Positions 1 to 9,696 of a stretch of 59,417 nt of DNA are shown here, piece by piece. Below the pieces are notes generated by a model, which saw only the letters and a list, made by a program, of their open reading frames with translations, ran no database searches and was not told the origin of the DNA. This DNA comes from Microcoleus sp. AS-A8 (lineage in GTDB: Bacteria > Cyanobacteriota > Cyanobacteriia > Cyanobacteriales > Coleofasciculaceae): positions 1 to 59,417 of the forward strand of contig JAMPKV010000033.1 in the NCBI GenBank assembly GCA_039962225.1. The letters are read 5' to 3'. Positions within the stretch are counted from its first letter, which is position 1, and the number at the start of each line of letters is the position of its first letter. The position numbers and the translations under genes are program-made.

Positions 1-515
1 CCTGTGCCACCATACATCGCGTCATTGCCCGTACCACCATCGAGGTAGTTACTCGAGCTATTGCCGTAGATGACGTTGTCGAGGCTGTTGCCCACACCAG
101 AGTAGGCTGTTCCCATCACGTAAAGATTTTCTACATTGCTACCTAGGCTGTAGCTGACGGAAGAATAGACCCAATCACTAGTACCTCCACCGGCGTACTC
201 GGAAACCGTGTCATAAGCGCTATCTACTACATAGGTGTCGTTGCCTGTGCCACCATACATCGCGTCATAGCCCGTACCGCCATCGATGTAGTCGTTGCCA
301 GCACCACCATCGATGTAGTCATCACCACCTCTACCATAGAGAGCATCATTGCCAGCACCACCATCAAGATAGTCATTGTACGCACCACCATATAGGGCAT
401 CGCTGCCAGCATAGCCCAGTGCGTAGAGATTGGTATAGTACGACGGGTAATAGTAATTCGTCGTTAAGTCGAAGGAATCGCTTGCTGCTGTGCCGTAATA
501 GTAGTACCAAGCCAT
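1..515 (-). CDS. RTX-type calcium-binding repeat protein (N-terminal part, runs off left edge)
   Basis: Open frame from an ATG at 513-515 (minus strand) to the window edge with no stop, so only the first ~171 residues are present. A Tyr-rich N-terminus beginning MAWYYYYGTAASD leads into Asp/Gly nonapeptides of the GGAGNDALYG and GGTGNDAMYG type, the calcium-binding beta-roll of RTX (hemolysin-type) proteins. Between repeat blocks lies a spacer of the NDTYVVDSAYDTVSE type, common in large cyanobacterial RTX proteins. An AGGAG ribosome-binding site sits 9 bases upstream (complement of 525-529). Such proteins are usually exported by type I secretion using a C-terminal signal, which lies outside the window. 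Function beyond calcium-dependent folding outside the cell cannot be said. Confidence 0.85.
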   Translation of the reverse strand, partial: MAWYYYYGTAASDSFDLTTNYYYPSYYTNLYALGYAGSDALYGGAYNDYLDGGAGNDALYGRGGDDYIDGGAGNDYIDGGTGYDAMYGGTGNDTYVVDSAYDTVSEYAGGGTSDWVYSSVSYSLGSNVENLYVMGTAYSGVGNSLDNVIYGNSSSNYLDGGTGNDAMYGGT

Positions 516-1242
516 GATCAGTTGCTCCTAATTTGCCACAAGGTTTTGATGAGAGGGTAGAGCTTACTAACATTGCTTTTTCGGTAAGCATCTACTTTTT
601 GCACAAGTCCAGTTTGGTTATCTGTCTGTTGTACTTATCTCTGTTGCCGAGGTACCTTATGCAAGATTCGTTAGATTGGTTTTAGCGACACAGGCATTGG
701 GTAACCTCTGATGACTTGTCTGACCCTGTGGCAGCAGTTATGCAAGTCTTTACAAAACTTCACGATTAAATTCGTAGCCCTTCAGCTCAAACTCTTCTAA
801 CCGATGAGTGTCTCATCGGCTCATCCTACTCTTGTGATCCAAGATGGCAAGGTACCCGAAACGGGTACTTTTTTCTGGAGTTCGTTGCAGGATATGCGAA
901 AAATGAAGTAGGGGTAGCCCTTGTCTAACGCCTCCCTCAGGGAAGGGTACCGACAACGGATACTCCTAGAGGAAGACTCCTGGACACTCTTGTAGGATGT
1001 AGCAGGGTGGTCTGGATTAAGACGAAGACAGCAAAATCGAGGAGAATATTGAAGCTACGTTTACAGGCCAGCATTTACGATTAAGGAAATATCAAAGACT
1101 TCCACAAAAGTGTTGGTGAAGATCAATCAATATCGACCCTTTCCCCAGATTCAGGAACAATCAAGAAGACTCAGTCGTTTACTGGAATTGGCACTCTTCT
1201 CAACACAATCGGCAGTAGGAAAACTTAAGGAGCGATCGCTCA
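516..1242. other. Intergenic region, 727 bp, with one terminator-like hairpin
   Basis: Lies between the divergent RTX gene and the sigma-like gene and should hold both promoters. No coding frame of convincing composition was seen on either strand. The only clear structure is the hairpin with U-run at 852-874. The sigma-like gene has AAGGAG at 1227-1232, followed by a HIP1 octamer that lies between the ribosome-binding site and the ATG. Confidence 0.5.
852..874 (+). terminator. Rho-independent terminator-like hairpin with no obvious upstream gene
   Basis: GTACCCG (852-858), loop AAA, CGGGTAC (862-868), followed directly by six T residues (869-874). The T-run is only on the plus strand, so it would stop plus-strand transcription. 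No plus-strand gene precedes it in the window, which leaves room for a small RNA between about 600 and 874. Confidence 0.55.
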
Positions 1243-1878
1243 ATGAATGAACGGGAGGAACGGCTGGACTCATTGGTTACAGAAGGCTGTAAACATCCAC
1301 CAGGAAGTGCTGCGCGTCAGAGAAACTTAACAAGGATTATTCGCCTGATTGGCCCCAAGCTTTGGCGAGAGAATACTCCTTACTATCCAGACGCCTTGCA
1401 ACAGACGTGGGTATATTTCTGCCAGAACATCTGCGAAGGCAAGACAGGCAGAGCTTATGACCCGGATCGGGGTAGTATCGTCACCTGGTTAAATTTTTAC
1501 CTGAAGAAACGACTCCACGATTTTTACACAGATGATCGCGATCGGGAAAGAAAAATTGCGACCCCAAAATCTGATGACTCGACCGAAAATCCTGACCCCC
1601 TGGAAAATATTGCTTCTGAACCCGACGTTCCTCCCCTACTCGAACAGGTTAAACAATGGGTTGAAGACGATTTAGACGGAGAATTAAGGCACATCCACAT
1701 TGCCAACCGCAAAGATGTCACTGCCCAAGTCTTAATCTTGCGGCGCTTGCCCCCAGAAACCAGTTGGAAAGATCTCGCCACAGAATTTAATCTATCAGTC
1801 TCGACGTTGAGCAGTTTTTATCAGCGACAATGTCTACCTCGGCTGCGTAAATTTGGTGAATCAGAGGGATATCTATAG
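1243..1878 (+). CDS. Sigma-70-like factor (ECF-type, cyanobacterial)
   Basis: 211 residues. Residues ~24-95 resemble sigma region 2, including an AYDPDRGSIVTWLNFYLKKR stretch, and residues ~165-205 form a region-4-like helix-turn-helix (SWKDLATEFNLSVSTLSSFY). They are joined by an acidic, proline-containing linker. The ATG at 1243 has AAGGAG 10 bases upstream. It is followed 84 bp later by a DUF1822 gene and then CHAT/CHASE2 and DUF928 genes, so it probably directs RNA polymerase to this locus or co-regulated genes. Region 4 is divergent, so promoter recognition is inferred from the family. Alternative: a DNA-binding regulator that kept the sigma fold without forming holoenzyme. Confidence 0.75.
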   Translation: MNEREERLDSLVTEGCKHPPGSAARQRNLTRIIRLIGPKLWRENTPYYPDALQQTWVYFCQNICEGKTGRAYDPDRGSIVTWLNFYLKKRLHDFYTDDRDRERKIATPKSDDSTENPDPLENIASEPDVPPLLEQVKQWVEDDLDGELRHIHIANRKDVTAQVLILRRLPPETSWKDLATEFNLSVSTLSSFYQRQCLPRLRKFGESEGYL

Positions 1879-1962
1879 TACGGGGTGTAAATAAAAGGGC
1901 ATCTACGTCTTGTGGCTGCTGTACGTAACCCCAAAAATTTACTAACACTAAGGAATAATCCC

Positions 1963-2946
1963 ATGACATACCCCACCCACGAGCTAGACGACTTGTCCTT
2001 ATCACTACCTATCACTCAGACAGCACTTCGTACTGCACAACAGTTTGCCAATGAACAACCCACACCCCAAAAAGCTGAGCAGGTTCGGCTCAACACTCTA
2101 GCGGTGTGTGCGGTTAATGATTACTTACAGATGATTGGCATACCAACCAACCTAGAAGCGAGCGACAGTTGGAATCCCGTGTTGCGCCTGTGTGCGGATG
2201 TCGCTGACTTAGAAGTCACAGGCATCGGTCGCCTGGAATGTCGCCCTCATAAAAGTGGTCAATCTAGCTGCTATATTCCCCCAGAAGTTTGGTTAGACCG
2301 GGTGGGTTATATCGTTGTTGAAATCGATGAACTCTCACTGGAGGCAACCGTGTTGGGTTTTACTCAAACTGTTACTAGCGAAGAATTACCCATTAGGCAG
2401 CTACAAGCGATCGACGATTTAATCGATGTCCTAAATCCGCTAGATGAACCCCAGCAGATTCCTACAGTTGCGAGGACACGCGTGAATCTGAACCAATGGT
2501 TAACCAATGTTTTCGAGCAAGGTTGGCAAACCGTTGAATCACTATTCGCTCCCACTGAACCTGAATTTGCCTTTAATTTCCGCAGTGCTCCGGACTCAGT
2601 TATGGATGAACTCGCTGTCTCTGATGAAGGCATCAGTCGCGCTAAACTTATCGACTTAGGAATGCAGTTAGCGGGTTACCCGGTGGCGTTAGTGGTTAAA
2701 ATCCAATCGGAATCCGAACGCAAAACCCATATCCTGCTTCAGCTTCATCCCAGTGGTGGGCAAATCTATCTACCCCCCTTCTTACAACTCACCGTACTCG
2801 ATGAATCTGGGTTAATTTTTCTGGAAGCCCAAGCCAGAAGCGCTGATAATTATATACAGCTCCAGTTTAGTGGTCTCCCTGGGGAACCCTTTAGCGTTAA
2901 AGTAGCTCTCGGTGATGCCAGTGTTACAGAAGACTTTGTGGTTTGA
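1963..2946 (+). CDS. DUF1822 family protein
   Basis: 327 residues from ATG 1963, which has AAGGA about 8 bases upstream. An in-frame GTG at 1912 exists but lacks such a site. Recognised as DUF1822 from a mid-protein RPHKSGQSSCYIPPEVW-like region and the C-terminal beta-rich part with ILLQLHPSGGQIYLPP. No signal peptide or membrane segment is evident, so it is probably cytoplasmic. The family has no established biochemical function. In this window it lies between a sigma-like gene and a CHAT-CHASE2 gene, which suggests it is an adaptor or regulator in the same system. Confidence 0.85.
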   Translation: MTYPTHELDDLSLSLPITQTALRTAQQFANEQPTPQKAEQVRLNTLAVCAVNDYLQMIGIPTNLEASDSWNPVLRLCADVADLEVTGIGRLECRPHKSGQSSCYIPPEVWLDRVGYIVVEIDELSLEATVLGFTQTVTSEELPIRQLQAIDDLIDVLNPLDEPQQIPTVARTRVNLNQWLTNVFEQGWQTVESLFAPTEPEFAFNFRSAPDSVMDELAVSDEGISRAKLIDLGMQLAGYPVALVVKIQSESERKTHILLQLHPSGGQIYLPPFLQLTVLDESGLIFLEAQARSADNYIQLQFSGLPGEPFSVKVALGDASVTEDFVV

Positions 2947-3314
2947 GTGGGATCAGGCTCAACTGTCTGCCCTCCTTTCTCTGGGACAGCAAGTTGCTGC
3001 CAACAGAAGCCCTAATCCACCTTTCACCCCTAATGCGGTTCTTTTTGGTATATGTGAAAGCCCAGATTTCTCTCTTCTCTCCTTCTTAACATCTCGCCAA
3101 TGAGCCAGTAATACTTCTGACCAGAACTAGATAAAACTGGAATTCATGAATGTTTGTTAAGGGTTAGACAATCCGTAAACCTCCTTGAGTAAGTTCCAAG
3201 CTACTGGGAAGTGCATAACCCAACAATGATTGGAAATAGAACTTCTAGGAGCGAACCACAGAGTCATCTTGATTGCCGAGGCAATGCCCTTAACTTCGAT
3301 CTGGAGAAGCCGTC
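2947..3314. other. Intergenic region, 368 bp
   Basis: Separates the DUF1822 and CHAT-CHASE2 genes. A 63-codon frame at 2912-3103 overlaps the DUF1822 3' end, has no ribosome-binding site and shows no family resemblance, so it is not called. No strong hairpin or repeat was seen. A promoter for the CHAT-CHASE2 gene could lie here. Confidence 0.4.
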
Positions 3315-5651
3315 ATGGGTAAGTTAGTCGTCCTAAAGCTAGGGGATGGTAGCTTTGAACAGGGATTTCCTGTCACCTTACAAATTGGAGAGGATGAAAG
3401 TCCCCCCTGTTTGGAAATCATCGGTAAGCTGCCACCGATCCCGGAAATTCCTCAATCCTATAAAACTTGGTCTACCACTTATCGCCATTTGGGAGGACGT
3501 TCCCGACTCGAAGCCCCTGCTGCCCAACGCACTCACTTTTCCACCATTGAAAGTTGCTGTAGTGCTGCCCAAATTTTACGCGATCGCCTCAACAATTGGC
3601 TCTACTCGGAACCGTTTCGCCCCATCCGAGAAAAATTACTCGAACAATTAATGCCGTCTGATGAAATCCGGCTGATTATTCAAACGAACGATATTTGGTT
3701 AAAGCGACTCCCCTGGCATCTGTGGGATTTTTGCGATCGCTACCCCAAAGCTGAAATTGCCCTAAGTCCACTTGGCTTTCCTCCCCACGAAACAAGCCTA
3801 ACCTCCCATACTCAAGTCAGAATCTTAGCCATTCTGGGTAATAGTAAAGACATTAATATCCAAGCAGATCGGCTCTTACTCGAACAGTTACCCAATGCAG
3901 AAGTCCGCTTTTTGGTAGAACCACAACGCCACGAATTCAGTGAAGAACTTTGGAATCAAGACTGGGATATTCTCTTTTTTGCGGGACATAGTTCCAGTCA
4001 TTGTAATGGCGAAACGGGTCGAATATATCTCAATCAAACCGATAGCTTAACCTTTGATCAGTTAAAATTTGCTGTTAAAAAAGCCGTAGAACGAGGCTTA
4101 AAAATTGCAATTTTCAATTCTTGTGATGGCTTGGGATTAGCCAAAGATTTAGTCGATTTGAATATTCCGCAAGTCATTGTCATGCGGGAGCCAGTGCCTG
4201 ACCGCATCTCCCAAGAATTTTTAAAGTATTTTTTAGATGCCTATTCTAGAGGTAAATCATTCTATCTCGCCGTGCGCGAGGCCAGAGAACGCTTGCAGGG
4301 ATGGGAAGATCAATTTCCTTGTGCGACTTGGTTACCGCTAATTTGTCAAAAAAATCCTGCCGTTGTGCCACCGACTTGGCGAGATTTGTATAAGGTGGAT
4401 GACAAGCCGCCTCCACCCCCGCTTCCACCCCCGCCACTCCGTCCTCTACCTCTGCCCAAATTGCGGTGTAGTCTGCGGACTGTGTTACTCATCAGTGTGG
4501 GAATCACCTCCCTGTTCCTGGGAATTCGACACAAGGGACTCCTGCAACCGTTAGAATTGCAAGCGTTCGACTGGATGATGCAAATCAGACCCGCCGAACC
4601 CCCTGATTCGCGCCTTTTGGTCGTCACTGTCACGGAAGACGATATTAAAGCTCAGGGAAATGAGTTCCGGCGTGGGTCACTATCCGATCGCACGTTAGCC
4701 CGACTGTTAGCGAAACTCGAATCCTATCAACCCAGAGTCATTGGCTTAGATATTTATCGCGATTTTAAAGTAGAAGCCAAGTACCCAGAGTTAGCCAAAT
4801 ATCTCAGAGAAAGTCAACGCTTCATTGCTGTGTGCGAAGCCAGTACAGACCCTAGCGACCCGGCGATTGAACCGCCGCCAGAAGTCCCTAAGGGCAACCT
4901 GGGCTTAAGTGATGTGGCGATCGATTCCGGTGGCATTGTCCGTCGTCATCTTCTGGCGATGACCCCATCTCCGGCCTCAGCTTGCAAGCCCTACTACACC
5001 CTCAGCACCCAGTTAGCATTCCGCTACCTAGAAACACAGGGCATCTCGCGTCAAATTACGCCAGAGGGGCTATTAAAACTGGGCAAAGTTGTGTTTAAGC
5101 CCTTGGAACCTCATAGCAGTGGCTACCAAGGCACCGACGCCTGGGGTCACCAAGTGCTGCTCAATTATCGCTTCTACCGCTCGAGCGAGGATTTTGTCGG
5201 ACAAGTCAGCGTCACCCAGGTTCTGAACGGTCAGCTCGATCCTGACTCCGTCAAAAACCGAATTATTCTCATTGGTGTTACAGCGCCCAGCGCTAAGGAT
5301 TTTTTTCTCACACCTTACGGTCAAAGAATTCCAGGTGTCGTCGTTCATGCCCAGCAAGTGAGTCAGATTCTCAGTGCTGTTCTCGATGGGCGACCGCTTT
5401 TGTGGGTTTGGCCTGGATGGGGAGATGCCCTGTGGATTTGGGGATGGTCGCTGGTCGGTGGTCTAATTTCTTGGCGCTTTTTCACAGGGCAGCGCTGGGT
5501 GGTGGTGATGGGTGCGATTGTCATTTTGTACGGGCTTAGCTATGTACTGTTCCTGCTGGGAGGGTGGATTCCTCTCGTTCCGGCAGCTCTGGTTTTGGTA
5601 TCGACCAGTGGCGGTGTTTTAGCTTACACCACCTGGCAAGCCCGAAAGTAA
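3315..5651 (+). CDS. CHAT protease-like domain fused to CHASE2 sensor, membrane protein
   Basis: 778 residues. The N-terminal half carries a CHAT (caspase/separase-like) domain with the expected dyad: His225 in FFAGHSSSH and Cys270 in FNSCDG. A proline-rich linker (~376-386) leads to a first membrane segment (~389-407), an extracytoplasmic CHASE2 domain (~415-690, with QAFDWMMQIRP and FLTPYG-type motifs), and two to three C-terminal membrane segments (~695-775). So an outside sensor is joined to an intracellular putative cysteine protease. CHAT proteases are known elsewhere as cell-death or virulence effectors; the substrate here is unknown. Translation ends 24 bp before the first DUF928 gene, so co-transcription is likely. 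The dyad looks intact. Confidence 0.88.
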   Translation: MGKLVVLKLGDGSFEQGFPVTLQIGEDESPPCLEIIGKLPPIPEIPQSYKTWSTTYRHLGGRSRLEAPAAQRTHFSTIESCCSAAQILRDRLNNWLYSEPFRPIREKLLEQLMPSDEIRLIIQTNDIWLKRLPWHLWDFCDRYPKAEIALSPLGFPPHETSLTSHTQVRILAILGNSKDINIQADRLLLEQLPNAEVRFLVEPQRHEFSEELWNQDWDILFFAGHSSSHCNGETGRIYLNQTDSLTFDQLKFAVKKAVERGLKIAIFNSCDGLGLAKDLVDLNIPQVIVMREPVPDRISQEFLKYFLDAYSRGKSFYLAVREARERLQGWEDQFPCATWLPLICQKNPAVVPPTWRDLYKVDDKPPPPPLPPPPLRPLPLPKLRCSLRTVLLISVGITSLFLGIRHKGLLQPLELQAFDWMMQIRPAEPPDSRLLVVTVTEDDIKAQGNEFRRGSLSDRTLARLLAKLESYQPRVIGLDIYRDFKVEAKYPELAKYLRESQRFIAVCEASTDPSDPAIEPPPEVPKGNLGLSDVAIDSGGIVRRHLLAMTPSPASACKPYYTLSTQLAFRYLETQGISRQITPEGLLKLGKVVFKPLEPHSSGYQGTDAWGHQVLLNYRFYRSSEDFVGQVSVTQVLNGQLDPDSVKNRIILIGVTAPSAKDFFLTPYGQRIPGVVVHAQQVSQILSAVLDGRPLLWVWPGWGDALWIWGWSLVGGLISWRFFTGQRWVVVMGAIVILYGLSYVLFLLGGWIPLVPAALVLVSTSGGVLAYTTWQARK

Positions 5652-5675
5652 CCTTCTACACCTGATTCATGCATC

Positions 5676-6572
5676 ATGATTTACAACAAGTTATCTCAAC
5701 TACCCAAAACCCTAACCCTGGGTTTGATTGTTGTCGGAGTGTATAGCCATCTTCCACTACCCACCCAGGCGACCGCTGCACCAACCCCATCGGCTCTATC
5801 CGTTGTTTCAAAAGCCCCGTCTGCCGCGACAACCCAACCCTCCTTCGTCCGGCTCCAACTTGCCCAGACACCGGGACAACTGGCCAGTCGCAGCGCAGCA
5901 ACGCCCTTTAAAACCACACCACTGCTCAAAGACCGAGGTGCACCCGCACCCGGTAAACGAGTGGGTGGAGCCAGCCGGGGGACTTGTCCAAGAGCCAGCA
6001 AGAGCCTTACCGCTTTGGTGCCTATTATCCCAACTCCTTCGACTGACTCTGTATTGGGCTTAACGTTTGCTGAGCATCCCACTTTGTGGTTTTATGTTCC
6101 CTATTCCATGACATCTACACGCCCTGTTGAGTTCATCCTGAAGGATGATCAAGGTACGGAACTCTACAGAACCTTGCTATCGGAGTCGGGCACCGCGCCT
6201 GGAGTAATGGGCTTCCAGATTCCTGAAACGGTGCCACCCCTGGCGGTCAACAAGCGCTATAAGTGGTACTTGACGATTTTTTGCGATGCGAATGAGCGTA
6301 GCGATTTTAGGTCTGTGGAGGGCTGGGTACAACGGGTTGCCCTTGAACCCAAACTCCAACAGGAGTTAAAACAAGCCTCCCCCCAACAGAAGGCTGTTCT
6401 TTATACCCAAGCCGGCGTCTGGCACGAGGCTGTAACCACTCTTGCCCAACTGCATCGCCAGAATCCCAACAATGCCACCCTGCAACAGCAGTGGCAAGAA
6501 TTAATGCAATTGATTGATTTAGGCGCGATCGCTCCGGAACCGATTACCTCAATGCTTACTCCTAATAAATAA
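5676..6572 (+). CDS. DUF928 family secreted protein, copy 1
   Basis: 298 residues. An N-terminal hydrophobic stretch followed by an Ala/Pro-rich region indicates a signal peptide or membrane anchor. The DUF928 core has a DRGAPAPGKRVGGASRG entry motif, then LTALVP, a HPTLWFYVPY motif and a beta-rich domain. The C-terminus (KAVLYTQAGVWHEAVTTLA) resembles a TPR-like helical hairpin. It starts 24 bp after the CHAT-CHASE2 stop, without a strong Shine-Dalgarno, which suggests translational coupling. Probably acts in the periplasm or cell envelope; DUF928 has no proven function. Its paralogue follows at 6761. Confidence 0.88.
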   Translation: MIYNKLSQLPKTLTLGLIVVGVYSHLPLPTQATAAPTPSALSVVSKAPSAATTQPSFVRLQLAQTPGQLASRSAATPFKTTPLLKDRGAPAPGKRVGGASRGTCPRASKSLTALVPIIPTPSTDSVLGLTFAEHPTLWFYVPYSMTSTRPVEFILKDDQGTELYRTLLSESGTAPGVMGFQIPETVPPLAVNKRYKWYLTIFCDANERSDFRSVEGWVQRVALEPKLQQELKQASPQQKAVLYTQAGVWHEAVTTLAQLHRQNPNNATLQQQWQELMQLIDLGAIAPEPITSMLTPNK

Positions 6573-6639
6573 GCCTCTGATTAATCTCAGTCTTCTTATC
6601 GGACTACGCTGTTACAAACTAATTATTTTGAGCTTTCAC

Positions 6640-6760
6640 GGAGGGCGATTGGGTGGCTCTTGTCCCGGCAGCCCTGGTTTTAGTATCTACTAGTGACAGT
6701 CTCTTTGTTTAAGGCCACTTGTCACCCCGACGCCTACCTTCTACACTTTATTGATTCATT
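6640..6760 (+). pseudogene. Remnant of the CHASE2 gene 3' end (duplication scar)
   Basis: This spacer matches the last ~100 bp of the CHAT-CHASE2 gene plus its spacer. Compare CCGGCAGCCCTGGTTTTAGT (from 6665) with CCGGCAGCTCTGGTTTTGGT (from 5580), and CCTTCTACACTTTATTGATT with CCTTCTACACCTGATTCATG just before each DUF928 start. The frame is broken. It shows that copy 2 of DUF928 arose by tandem duplication of a block starting inside the CHASE2 coding end. Confidence 0.8.
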
Positions 6761-7789
6761 ATGATTCACAAAACATCATCCGAACGACAGAAAAGCTTAG
6801 CGCTCAGATGGGCTGCTGCCCCTTGGGCATTCGCTCTCACCGTTGCCGGGGCGTATGCTAGTCTTCCTCGACAAAGCCTTGCCATTCCTGTCCAAACCCC
6901 ATCGACCCCGGTCGTCTCGACAGTAACGCCTATTCGGGTTGAGACAACTCCACTCTCTTCCCTTAGACTACAACTGGCTCAGATTGAAAAACAACGGGTT
7001 CAACAAGGTACAGCCCAGGGTGATTCTCGCCTAGGTGGAAGTACGCGTTCCCAGAATCTATCTCAAAACCAGCAACCCAAAGACCGAGGTGCGCCTGCAC
7101 CCGGTCAACGGACAGGTGGGGCGACGCGTGGGACGAATGCAAGGTGTCCAGTTGCCAGCAAGCCTCTTACAGCTTTGGTGCCGATTATTTCAGCCACTTC
7201 GGATAAGAGTCAACACCCAATTCTTGCCAGCACTCCCGCCGGAGCCGTTTTGGGTTTAACCGTCGTCTCCCATCCAACTTTCTGGTTTTATGTTCCTTAT
7301 TCCATCACATCTGAACGTCCCGTTGAGTTTATCCTGAAGGATGATCGGGACAACATTATTTATCAAACTTTCTTATCCGAGTCGGCAATTGCGCCCGGTG
7401 TAGTCGGTTTCAAGCTTCCTGATACCGTGACACCCCTGGTGGTCAACAAACGGTATAACTGGTTCCTCACCATAGCTTGTGATCGACCATCATCGACCTC
7501 TAGCGAGCAAGAAGAACTGACCAAGATTTTTGTTTCAGGCTGGGTAGAACGGGTGACTCCTGATCCCTCACTCCAACGGGAGTTAGACAAAGCCACACCC
7601 CAGCAGAAGGCTCTCCTCTATGCCAAGGGCGGCATTTGGCACGAGGCTGTAACCACTCTGGCTGAGCTACGTCGTCAAAAACCCAACAATGTCACCCTGA
7701 AGGAAGAATGGGCTAAATTGTTGCGATCGATTAACTTAGAGGCGATCGCACCTGAACCAATTACCTCTATGCTGACCCCGAAAAAATAA
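6761..7789 (+). CDS. DUF928 family secreted protein, copy 2
   Basis: 342 residues, paralogous to the gene at 5676. It shares the DRGAPAPGQRTGGATRG motif, LTALVPII, the HPTFWFYVPYSIT core, VEFILKDDRD and the closing EPITSMLTP. It is longer because of a Gln/Ser-rich stretch after the signal region and a larger linker (residues ~150-165). N-terminal signal peptide or anchor with Ala-rich hydrophobic core. The ATG is preceded by the same spacer sequence as copy 1, carried along in the duplication. Presumably envelope-located. The divergence between copies suggests an old duplication kept by selection. Confidence 0.87.
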   Translation: MIHKTSSERQKSLALRWAAAPWAFALTVAGAYASLPRQSLAIPVQTPSTPVVSTVTPIRVETTPLSSLRLQLAQIEKQRVQQGTAQGDSRLGGSTRSQNLSQNQQPKDRGAPAPGQRTGGATRGTNARCPVASKPLTALVPIISATSDKSQHPILASTPAGAVLGLTVVSHPTFWFYVPYSITSERPVEFILKDDRDNIIYQTFLSESAIAPGVVGFKLPDTVTPLVVNKRYNWFLTIACDRPSSTSSEQEELTKIFVSGWVERVTPDPSLQRELDKATPQQKALLYAKGGIWHEAVTTLAELRRQKPNNVTLKEEWAKLLRSINLEAIAPEPITSMLTPKK

Positions 7790-7799
7790 GCCCTCGATG

Positions 7800-7836
7800 A
7801 TGGCTCAAAACGAGCATTGCACCTTCGATGAGCCAT
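7800..7836. terminator. Hairpin between convergent DUF928 and aat genes
   Basis: ATGGCTCA (7800-7807) and TGAGCCAT (7829-7836) form an 8-bp stem, extendable with one mismatch, in the 61-bp convergent spacer. There is no clear U-run on either strand, so it may be a weak or bidirectional terminator. Confidence 0.35.
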
Positions 7837-7850
7837 GATCCATGCCTCTA

Positions 7851-8426
7851 TCAATCCAAAAAACATGTGCGCTGCAATGCCTTCTGTAACAAAACTTGAT
7901 AGTTCTGTTCACTCAGGGTTTGAGCACCGAAGCGAGCGAGGTGAGGGTTGATCATCTGAGCATCAAATAGGATAAAACCTCGCGATCGCAACTGTTCCAC
8001 TAACTTAACTAGCGCGACCTTGGAGCCTTCAGGAATCCGATAAAACATAGATTCACCAATGAAGGCTCCACCTATCACAATTCCTAAAATTCCTCCTGCC
8101 AACTCATCATCTTGCCAAGTTTCAAAGCTATAAGCCCAACCGGCTTTATAAAGTGACCAATAAATCTCCTTCAGTTGGGGAGAAATCCAGGTAGATTCTC
8201 GATTCGCACAACCCGCAACCACACCTTTAAAGTCGCGATTAATCGCCATACTAAAACGCTCCTGATTAAGGACACGACGCAATGAAGTTGGGTAACGAAA
8301 TCGGTCATCCAGGGGAATGATCGCACGGTGGCGACTGGTGTACCAGCCTAACTCGCCAGTTTCATCTGCCATCAAGAAGTAGCCTTGGGCATATCCCTGG
8401 AGCAGGGAAGGAATATCAAATGCCAT
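7851..8426 (-). CDS. aat: Leucyl/phenylalanyl-tRNA--protein transferase
   Basis: 191 residues. Transfers Leu or Phe from tRNA to the N-terminus of proteins starting with Lys or Arg, marking them for ClpS/ClpAP-type degradation (N-degron pathway), in the cytoplasm. Family landmarks: GYFLMADE near the N-terminus, [39 protein letters not shown], the [21 protein letters not shown] core and [16 protein letters not shown]. It is shorter than the E. coli enzyme (234 residues), mainly at the N-terminus. Monocistronic on the minus strand, convergent with DUF928. Confidence 0.92.
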
Positions 8427-8643
8427 GAATAGAGTTCATTCGTCAGAAGCACTCATGTATATTATCTAACTGGGTATTTGGTATTGATCGGTCAATTAAG
8501 AAAGCGATCAAAATATAGCCAGTTTAAATAAATTGTAAAACTCTGTGTTCTCTCTCTTCTCTTTCTGGGTGTTCTCTGTGTTCTCTGCGTCTATGTGGTT
8601 TATTATTTTCACAAATCATTTAGAACCCCTATATACGACCGAC

Positions 8644-9696
8644 TCAACCTTTCTTGAGTGCCTTTGTGACCAACTCAGGAATCTGAGAAGGACGCTCTGC
8701 CACAGGGATATTCGCTTGCTTAAATGCTGCCACTTTGTGCTGGGCTGTACTAGCATTAGTGACTGGCCCTGATAGCTGAGCCGCAATAATGGCACTTGTA
8801 TCACTAACTTGTTTGTCCAAGGGTGTATGGCTTCCCGCAACGTAAGCAATTACGGGTTTATCAATAGTCTCGGCAATGTACTCAGCGGTTGCGTCATCGA
8901 TCAAACCACCAGTTTGATCCACTAAAACAATGACTTCCGTACTTCTATCCATAGCTAAAATCTGTAGCCATTGAGAAAAAGAAGAGCCAACAATGGCTGC
9001 ACTACCCAGATTAACCGCTATGGACTGTCCTAGTTGACGCTGGGTTAACTCTAAAGCCACTTCATAAGCGAGGGCACCACTACGGGCAATCAACCCAACC
9101 GGTCCGGGGCTATAAAATTCACTCTCCTGAGTACCCAGCAATACTTTTCCCGGCACAATGATACCCGAACTACTCGGCCCCAAAATTAAAGTACCCGTGC
9201 CCTCGGCTTTCCGCAAGAGGCGAACCATATCCAGGGGAGGAACACCCTCTGTAACCAAAATAATCAGCGGGATTTCTGCATCCATAGCTTCGAGTGCAGC
9301 ATCCAGAACTCGGTAGGATTCCACAAAAATAATGGTCGCCTCAATCGGTCCCGTCTGAGGCAGCACCTGCTCTACCAAGTCAAAGACAGGAATACCATGA
9401 AGTTCTTGCCCTCCCTGACCAGCACTCACCCCAGCCACGACATTGGTACCATAGGCTTTCATGCGAGCCGTGTAGTAGGAACCTAAGGGCTGTGTAATGC
9501 CTTGAACCAAGACTTTGCTGTTTGGCGTCAAGTTAATAGTCACTTGATGTGTAAGTGGTGTAGGTGCTGGATTGAGCGTCTCAACAACCCCAGCCGCTAC
9601 CTTCGTACCATTAGCTTTCATGGGGAGGGTGTAGTAAGAGTTCAGCGATGGTGTACTGTCCTGTTCCAGGGTTTGGCTTTCTTTTGTCAAGTTCAT
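8644..9696 (-). CDS. sucD: Succinyl-CoA ligase alpha subunit-like protein, divergent
   Basis: Recognised from VLVQGITQPLGSYYTARMKAYG, TEGVPPLDM, the GPVGLIARSGALAYE region and overall SucD length. From ATG 9696 it has 350 residues; a start at GTG 9543 gives 299, the usual family length. The extra ~50 N-terminal residues are a degraded copy of the normal N-terminus (LNSYYTLPMKANGTKVAAGV versus LGSYYTARMKAYGTNVVAGV). Key residues appear lost: the active-site His of the GHAGAI motif is replaced (SDTSAI, Asp codon at 8800-8802), and the Glu of GEIGG is Gln (VDQTGG). Normally forms the SCS heterodimer with SucC; pairs with the gene at 9950. Catalysis is doubtful. Confidence 0.75.
   Translation of the reverse strand: MNLTKESQTLEQDSTPSLNSYYTLPMKANGTKVAAGVVETLNPAPTPLTHQVTINLTPNSKVLVQGITQPLGSYYTARMKAYGTNVVAGVSAGQGGQELHGIPVFDLVEQVLPQTGPIEATIIFVESYRVLDAALEAMDAEIPLIILVTEGVPPLDMVRLLRKAEGTGTLILGPSSSGIIVPGKVLLGTQESEFYSPGPVGLIARSGALAYEVALELTQRQLGQSIAVNLGSAAIVGSSFSQWLQILAMDRSTEVIVLVDQTGGLIDDATAEYIAETIDKPVIAYVAGSHTPLDKQVSDTSAIIAAQLSGPVTNASTAQHKVAAFKQANIPVAERPSQIPELVTKALKKG

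Follow-up and report, generated by a model that had tools for sequence, protein, structure and literature searches.

A conserved cyanobacterial cassette of a sigma-like factor, DUF1822, a CHAT-CHASE2 protein and DUF928: a candidate stimulus-to-transcription switch

What could a caspase-like protease held in a membrane have to do with a sigma factor? The question is raised by five neighbouring genes in a stretch of 59,417 nucleotides from the cyanobacterium Microcoleus sp. AS-A8 (GenBank assembly GCA_039962225.1, contig JAMPKV010000033.1), the whole of which we call the window. They encode a sigma-like factor of the extracytoplasmic function (ECF) type, a DUF1822 protein, a membrane protein that joins a CHAT domain to a CHASE2 sensor, and two DUF928 proteins. 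The finding is real and functionally coherent; it is mostly a member of a kind of system that has been described but not characterised, with DUF928 as a new component. Our preferred reading, to which we give a probability of a little over 0.4, takes the cassette for an EACC2-caspase type of switch that turns a stimulus into transcription, and in which CHAT would relieve the inhibition of the sigma factor by DUF1822.

The cassette and its linkage across genomes

The linkage of the five genes is not chance. Fifty-nine genomes were searched for DUF1822, and 23 class-level genomes were carried forward together with the window's own genome, leaving out 34 genomes outside the class (matches of at most 44.1 bits) and one that resembles another (G057, resembling G002). 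The order sigma factor, DUF1822, EACC2-CHAT-CHASE2, DUF928 was contiguous in nine cassettes from 8 of these 24 genomes (the window, L065, L094, L102, L105, L109, L114, L119 and L120), the window's own genome has a second cassette with all four components on contig C11, and many Nostoc species and further filamentous genera keep the order. Among the named loci, which are the best 80 of 248 candidates, CHASE2 lies downstream of DUF1822 in 78, a figure that is biased because the query was built mainly from CHASE2-type DUF1822, so that the 14 of 55 genes in the 24-genome sample is fairer. Three named loci are duplicates (L194 of L099, L202 of L105, L203 of L097) and their removal brought four counts given below from 81/88 to 79/86, from 55/66 to 53/64, from 54 to 52 and from 0/32 to 0/31. 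An earlier note on this DNA, made from the sequence alone, had named a lack of conserved linkage in other genomes as one thing that would refute its interpretation, and linkage proved strong across the families.

The note had also described five co-directional genes in this order, and this description held: all five ORFs (open reading frames) are intact and on the + strand, and Pfam confirms DUF1822 (296.8 bits), CHAT and CHASE2 within one protein (51.8 and 233.5 bits) and two DUF928 proteins (222.2 and 203.9 bits to PF06051). The features are as follows.

1243..1878, + strand: ECF-like sigma factor, 211 residues (ORF; regions 2 and 4 by family resemblance, weak alone)
1963..2946, + strand: DUF1822 protein, proposed sigma inhibitor (Pfam; ORF 1912-2946 if the start is GTG)
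3315..5651, + strand: CHAT-CHASE2 membrane protein, 778 residues, with a constant N-terminal region, a CHAT protease domain and a CHASE2 sensor
3315..3599, + strand: constant region at the N-terminus (residues 1-95), matching EACC2 in position and context
3987..3989, + strand: codon of His225, predicted catalytic histidine (aligned CHAT proteins)
4122..4124, + strand: codon of Cys270, predicted catalytic cysteine (aligned CHAT proteins)
4470..4526, + strand: first transmembrane segment, residues 386-404 (hydropathy)
4509..5465, + strand: CHASE2 domain (Pfam)
5499..5624, + strand: C-terminal transmembrane segments, residues 729-747 and 752-770 (hydropathy)
5676..6572, + strand: DUF928 protein 1, proposed periplasmic CHASE2 partner (Pfam; export by a crude test)
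6657..6760, + strand: spacer remnant of the CHAT-CHASE2 gene (its 3' end), where the duplicated unit starts (72% match)
6761..7789, + strand: DUF928 protein 2, tandem duplicate (Pfam)

Most aligned relatives of the DUF1822 protein begin at the ATG at 1963, which makes it a likelier start than the GTG at 1912. The CHAT and DUF928 genes are 24 bp apart (family median 81, 79 pairs), which bears out the tight spacing noted earlier, and the 368 bp between DUF1822 and CHAT is long against a family median of 137.5 (110 pairs); up to three duplicated loci are contained in these pair sets. The second DUF928 gene arose by a tandem duplication whose unit begins within the CHAT-CHASE2 gene, window positions 5572-5709 matching 6657-6794 at 72%.

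In six loci (L168, L179, L185, L190, L192 and L193) two cassettes stand back to back with a single sigma gene between them; the - strand carries sigma-DUF1822-CHASE2-DUF928 and the + strand DUF1822-CHASE2-DUF928.

Modular sensors of the CHAT proteins and the place of DUF928

Is DUF928 attached to the protease or to its sensor? The CHAT protein is modular. A constant region of about 95 residues before CHAT is common to proteins with different sensors, and the same EACC2-CHAT module is followed by CHASE2, by a Peripla_BP_6/ANF receptor domain, by TPR, by nSTAND1 or by nSTAND1 with WD40; one protein is inverted, with pentapeptide repeats first and CHAT at the C-terminus. In the scanned ORFs the EACC2-like region was found in 25 and CHAT in 30, the five without it being those with a divergent CHASE2. 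Downstream of the 55 DUF1822 genes of the 24-genome sample there is an EACC2-CHAT-CHASE2 gene in 14 cases, an EACC2-CHAT gene without CHASE2 in 9 (Peripla_BP_6/ANF in five, TPR, nSTAND1 and nSTAND1 with WD40 in one each, and one truncated gene), a divergent CHASE2 gene in 3 and no CHAT gene within 600 bp in 29. With all loci pooled, the CHASE2 type makes up 95 of 138 distinct DUF1822 genes, most of them from the CHASE2-biased query.

DUF928 goes with the CHASE2 sensor and not with the protease. Among distinct CHASE2-type cassettes whose contig continues for 1 kb, it follows 79 of 86 (in the unbiased sample, 12 of 13), and it follows none of 8 cassettes with another sensor and none of 3 with a divergent CHASE2; this tally is 0/11 and not 0/12 because L110 ends before any sensor (no Pfam match). 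The Fisher value for the association, 6e-11 with L110 counted, is just a guide because the rows are related. The 24 genomes have 104 DUF928 places and 141 CHASE2 places; 58 of the former have one of the latter within 3 kb, against 1.25 expected under uniform placement, and 87 of the CHASE2 places have no DUF928 within that distance. The outputs joined to CHASE2 extend the pattern beyond the cassettes. Beside DUF928 we counted 36 CHASE2 proteins outside cassettes (47 places outside the own genome, minus 10 known CHAT cassettes and L304, which has no ORF), with a nucleotide cyclase in 16, a histidine kinase in 7, CHAT in 3, GGDEF-EAL in 1 and a protein kinase in 1. Forty without DUF928, a shuffled pick from 82 such places, gave a protein kinase in 12, GGDEF in 10, a cyclase in 7, a histidine kinase in 3 and CHAT in 3. 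Cyclases and histidine kinases set against protein kinases and GGDEF by the presence of DUF928 give a Fisher value of 2.9e-6; DUF928 therefore goes with CHASE2 over several outputs, some of them preferred, which supports the joint sensing role that the earlier note had assigned to CHASE2 and DUF928.

That DUF928 is secreted, as the note had it, agrees with an N-terminal hydrophobic stretch in 93 of 94 DUF928 proteins, compared with 25 of 141 DUF1822 proteins, by a crude hydropathy measure with a threshold of 1.7; the second copy in the window, at 1.6, falls just below it. Of the 94 proteins (92 distinct), 97% share one conserved cysteine and 94% a second, which could fit an exported, disulphide-bonded protein.

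As for the protease itself, the His225/Cys270 pair reported earlier is present, and the predicted dyad appears intact in the window protein: of 30 aligned CHAT proteins, 29 have both residues and the remaining one ends before it reaches them. By crude hydropathy CHASE2 has a single membrane segment on its N-terminal side and two on its C-terminal side. The only NCBIfam match of the protein is HetF, at 24.3 bits far below the cut-off of 1200. Three scanned Nostocales loci (L099 8059-10824, L178 4979-7705 and L097 2895-5717) encode, between the sigma factor and DUF1822, a TPR-CHAT protein of some 900 residues with a hydrophobic N-terminus by eye, and such loci therefore hold two different CHAT proteins.

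DUF1822 and its sigma factors

If the sensor has a partner in DUF928, what is the partner of DUF1822? The 55 DUF1822 genes examined come from the 20 of the 24 genomes having a DUF1822 match; five weak places (<50 bits) in these 20 genomes were set aside. A sigma or sigma-related gene lies directly 5' of 47 of the 55 and within 7 kb of 52. The window type of sigma factor directly precedes 26 of them, and a SigB/F/G-like sigma factor of about 390 residues precedes 10, four of these scoring 101.5, 105.5, 107.2 and 98.6 bits against TIGR02937 and the other six being assigned by resemblance. A related longer protein precedes two (42.2 and 34.4 bits), and a divergent protein nine; the profile of the latter matches the SigB/F/G-like class with a probability of 97.8 and an E of 1.1e-12 (controls with DUF1822 and DUF928, 0.1-0.5), while five members tested singly gave no or weak NCBIfam matches. 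The remaining genes comprise five with a non-adjacent sigma gene within 7 kb and three with none nearby, one of which has, elsewhere in its genome, a sigma factor 92% identical to a relative's query. In another of the three, L117 (G053:C31:28912-29822), the DUF1822 match begins at profile position 33 and a 26-residue sigma fragment (E 1.2e-4) lies at its 5' end, so we take this locus for a decayed pair.

DUF1822 is kept while its partner switches between ECF-like, SigB/F/G-like and divergent types. Nine loci (L079, L080, L087, L088, L093, L095, L098, L100 and L101) carry a separate DUF1822 subfamily directly 3' of a SigB/F/G-like sigma gene, with no CHAT gene within 600 bp; this subfamily is possibly a previously unrecognised partner of SigB/F/G-like sigma factors. 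Some DUF1822-sigma pairs adjoin proteins with trypsin-like, TPS or M48 domains instead. The two partners also diverge together. Their distance matrices correlate with a rho of 0.76 over 46 distinct pairs, which none of 999 permutations reached (0.767 for 47 pairs, one duplicate included), and when partners were swapped within genomes (26 pairs of known genome) the observed rho of 0.61 stood against a mean of 0.259, reached in 1 of 2000 swaps. Co-divergence of this kind is what a specific sigma-DUF1822 partnership would predict, and it is silent on whether DUF1822 inhibits or helps. Pairing and co-divergence together support the role of sigma regulator that had been suggested for DUF1822, and make a better case for a sigma-DUF1822 partnership than the earlier note could.

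Is the first gene of the window a sigma factor at all? The earlier note called it sigma-like, and the call stands at the level of the family and is weak for the single protein, which had no Pfam match at E 0.1 and matched TIGR02937 at E 0.0074 and 15.9 bits, below the cut-off of 42.9. Among 29 family members, 9 match Sigma70_r4_2 and 5 match Sigma70_r2 (E up to 0.1), and the family profile finds RpoE/ECF SigE as its top match in the PDB (E 0.006), with other ECF sigma factors weaker. An hhalign comparison with the SigB/F/G-like sigma factors speaks against the call, giving a probability of 18 over region 4 alone. Hydropathy found no membrane segment in the window protein.

A promoter-like element is found in the Nostocales. 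Upstream of 53 of 64 distinct CHASE2-type DUF1822 genes with a non-adjacent sigma gene stands GCATAAAT, in 52 of the 53 with GATA after the core at a spacing of exactly 15. The element has the form GGCATAAAT-N15-GATA and lies about 62 nt upstream of DUF1822 in loci L148-L204 (e.g. L178 7938-7965); 8 of the 11 remaining loci have, by eye, a variant in the corresponding position. Over 17 dereplicated loci, conservation reaches 2 bits in the core columns and stays below 0.6 in the far upstream flank. Four genomes contain one or two perfect sites each, one of them always before DUF1822, and their genome-wide counts with one mismatch allowed, 24, 27, 23 and 21, exceeded those of a reversed-pattern control, 6, 16, 9 and 7, but point to no particular targets. 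The exact string GGCATAAAT was not found before sigma genes in the loci scanned, and upstream of 16 sigma-adjacent cassettes there was no shared motif, the best dyad occurring in 3 of 16 against 3-4 in shuffles. The partner sigma factor may recognise this element, or another regulator may.

In the window itself, a scan of positions 900-7900 for sigma-70 promoters and terminators gave 4 promoter-like and 7 terminator-like sites (shuffle means 6.6 and 7.2), and Rfam gave no match at gathering scores in positions 1-9000. The two next genes 3' of the cassette encode a Leu/Phe-tRNA transferase and a CoA-ligase-like protein. At the left end, positions 3-515 on the - strand hold the start of a protein rich in GGAGND-type repeats, which we take to be of the calcium-binding type, that runs off the window.

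Two further observations concern DUF1822. In L126 (7943-11068) and L127 (105-6589) sigma and DUF1822 genes lie upstream of a gene for a large protein, with a TPS domain in L126; the start of the L127 protein is near-identical to that of L126, and a CHAT protein and then a DUF928 gene on the opposite strand follow it. Outside the class, genomes from a distant family of the phylum each contain one weak DUF1822-like match, up to 44.1 bits, in a long ORF of mostly 850-1300 residues (e.g. G058:C1:133163 and G048:C4:88164).

How the cassette might work, and what it resembles

The succession of a sensor, a protease, a candidate inhibitor and a sigma factor suggests regulated sigma release. CHASE2, outside the cytoplasmic membrane, would sense an envelope or extracellular cue together with exported DUF928, and the signal would cross the membrane segments to activate the cytoplasmic CHAT domain. 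CHAT would then cut DUF1822, or itself in such a way that DUF1822 is disturbed; by analogy with the CRISPR-linked CASP system discussed below, we infer that DUF1822 is what the CHAT-CHASE2 protein cleaves. DUF1822, which would normally keep its partner sigma factor inactive, would let it go, and the free sigma factor would switch on its targets, probably including the cassette.

Several observations weigh against this proposal. CHAT cleavage cannot be universal for DUF1822, because 29 of the 55 genes lack a CHAT gene in the 600 bp that follow them. A profile of 14 DUF1822 proteins gave a single PDB match, unrelated and at E 0.42, and hit no solved anti-sigma factor, although DUF1822 could still represent a new fold class of anti-sigma factors; hydropathy found no membrane anchor in it either. 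Many Nostocales loci have a non-adjacent sigma gene, and in one genome it is on another contig. Several sigma assignments are weak, those of single members of the divergent class among them. Seven of the 86 CHASE2-type cassettes lack DUF928, and five of the seven are from Moorena. Finally, the Nostocales element was found before none of 31 sigma-adjacent CHASE2 cassettes, nor before that of the window, and, being nearly unique in each of four genomes, it fits poorly with a sigma factor of wide regulon.

What else could the cassette do? CHAT might cleave itself when the sensor fires, so that a freed EACC2/CHAT part acts on the sigma factor or on other proteins and DUF1822 serves as an adaptor. 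Autopeptidase activation has been proposed in the portions of PMC8195603 consulted, and the constant EACC2-like region does precede CHAT in cassettes with different sensors; however, the region was not detected in the five divergent-CHASE2 members of the 30 CHAT proteins, and self-cleavage alone leaves unexplained why DUF1822 and sigma genes stay together also at loci with no CHAT gene close by. We find this alternative doubtful. It is improbable, in our view, that DUF1822 is instead a positive partner, a chaperone of the sigma factor or its carrier to RNA polymerase, with CHAT controlling something else: pairing and co-divergence would suit an activator as well as an inhibitor, but genes 3' of ECF sigma genes can encode anti-sigma factors, and SapG binds SigG (PMC2758279, as far as its available text goes).

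A sensor-triggered killer protease, active in cell death or against invaders, with the sigma factor merely tuning expression, would recall the setting in which EACC2 systems were presented, since PMC8195603, in the text consulted, treats them among mechanisms that resemble apoptosis and immunity, and cyanobacterial caspase homologues have been discussed as agents of cell death (PMC2853523, PMC7475262). Against it, PADLOC matched none of the five window proteins, the DUF928-CHASE2 pairs also serve cyclases and histidine kinases, that is, ordinary signalling, and the cassette keeps its order over many Nostoc species and other filamentous genera. In our judgement this is unlike defence islands, which turn over fast. 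We judge this explanation to be unlikely, and nothing that we found supports the cell-death response in particular that the earlier note had mentioned; the linkage, the sensing role and the sigma-regulator role in its interpretation fared well. The least probable option is that the CHAT protein is a scaffold or works through contacts without cleavage. HetF, the weak NCBIfam match, acts in the divisome and interacts with FtsI, but it loses its function when its conserved active site is mutated (both from the accessible part of PMC8406250), and the predicted dyad is identical in all 29 CHAT proteins that reach it.

The proposal that CHAT relieves the inhibition of a sigma factor by DUF1822 can be widened, tentatively, to the whole family: DUF1822 would be a large class of sigma inhibitors, a substrate of CHAT in one branch and in another a partner of SigB/F/G-like sigma factors, possibly including SigJ, and DUF928 would be a general periplasmic partner of CHASE2. 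If true, two families would receive their first functions, as sigma inhibitor and as CHASE2 partner, and SigB/F/G-like sigma factors would have a candidate regulator.

How much of this is new? The core of the system is not, since it was described in 2021 in an eLife paper reportedly by Kaur, Iyer, Burroughs and Aravind. The EACC2-caspase systems of that paper (PMC8195603, in the text consulted) have a constant N-terminal region and a caspase-type domain, a variable C-terminal sensor such as CHASE2, and an ECF sigma factor and DUF1822 as neighbours in most systems without a TRADD-N gene; a sigma factor and DUF1822 are in the neighbourhood at the window locus and its relatives too. DUF928 has no occurrence in its main text, and the DUF1822-sigma pairs without CHAT, the SigB/F/G-like sigma factors and the Nostocales element go beyond the description in the parts consulted. 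In a literature search made mostly without subscription journals and supplements, neither DUF928 as a part of EACC2 systems nor DUF1822-sigma pairing outside them was found, and, mostly without subscription journals, CHASE2 and the CHAT domain were not found together. The tracking of CHASE2 by DUF928, the CHAT-free sigma-DUF1822 pairing and the Nostocales element appear to be additions to what is in print.

Single components have parallels elsewhere. CHASE2 receptors share the Pfam domain and the hydrophobic segments on both sides, but in the cyclase, GGDEF and kinase proteins of the own genome CHASE2 is N-terminal, whereas here it is C-terminal to the output. A cluster of Nostoc punctiforme described in the available text of PMC5587647 likewise has CHASE2 and DUF928 genes lying near each other, accompanied by two WD40 genes and a hypothetical one; that text names no sigma factor, DUF1822 or CHAT, calls the cluster species-specific in the surveyed set, and cites work in which a DUF928 protein responds to acid stress. 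SapG is encoded downstream of sigG in a cyanobacterium, is co-transcribed with it and binds SigG, which resembles the sigma-DUF1822 arrangement, although no protease gene is described in the accessible part of PMC2758279. For SigJ, a sigma factor of hormogonia and desiccation, post-transcriptional or post-translational control is still undefined in the consulted parts of PMC6495340 and PMC2758279.

The closest mechanistic parallel that we draw is with CASP/Craspase, in which, according to the portions seen of PMC10028731, Cas7-11 is found with the CHAT protease Csx29, Csx30, Csx31 and CASP-sigma; Csx30 binds and inhibits the ECF-like CASP-sigma, and Csx29 relieves the inhibition by cleaving Csx30. 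Each kind of locus combines a CHAT protease with an ECF-like sigma factor and one further protein. There, target RNA is the activator through Cas7-11, whereas here a membrane CHASE2 sensor takes that place, and no CRISPR or defence part was recognised by PADLOC among the five window proteins, the only ones scanned. The switch would correspond to the CRISPR-linked CASP system, with sensing at the membrane, and, if this is true, the coupling of CHAT proteases to sigma factors would be an ordinary signalling design in filamentous cyanobacteria, extending beyond CASP.

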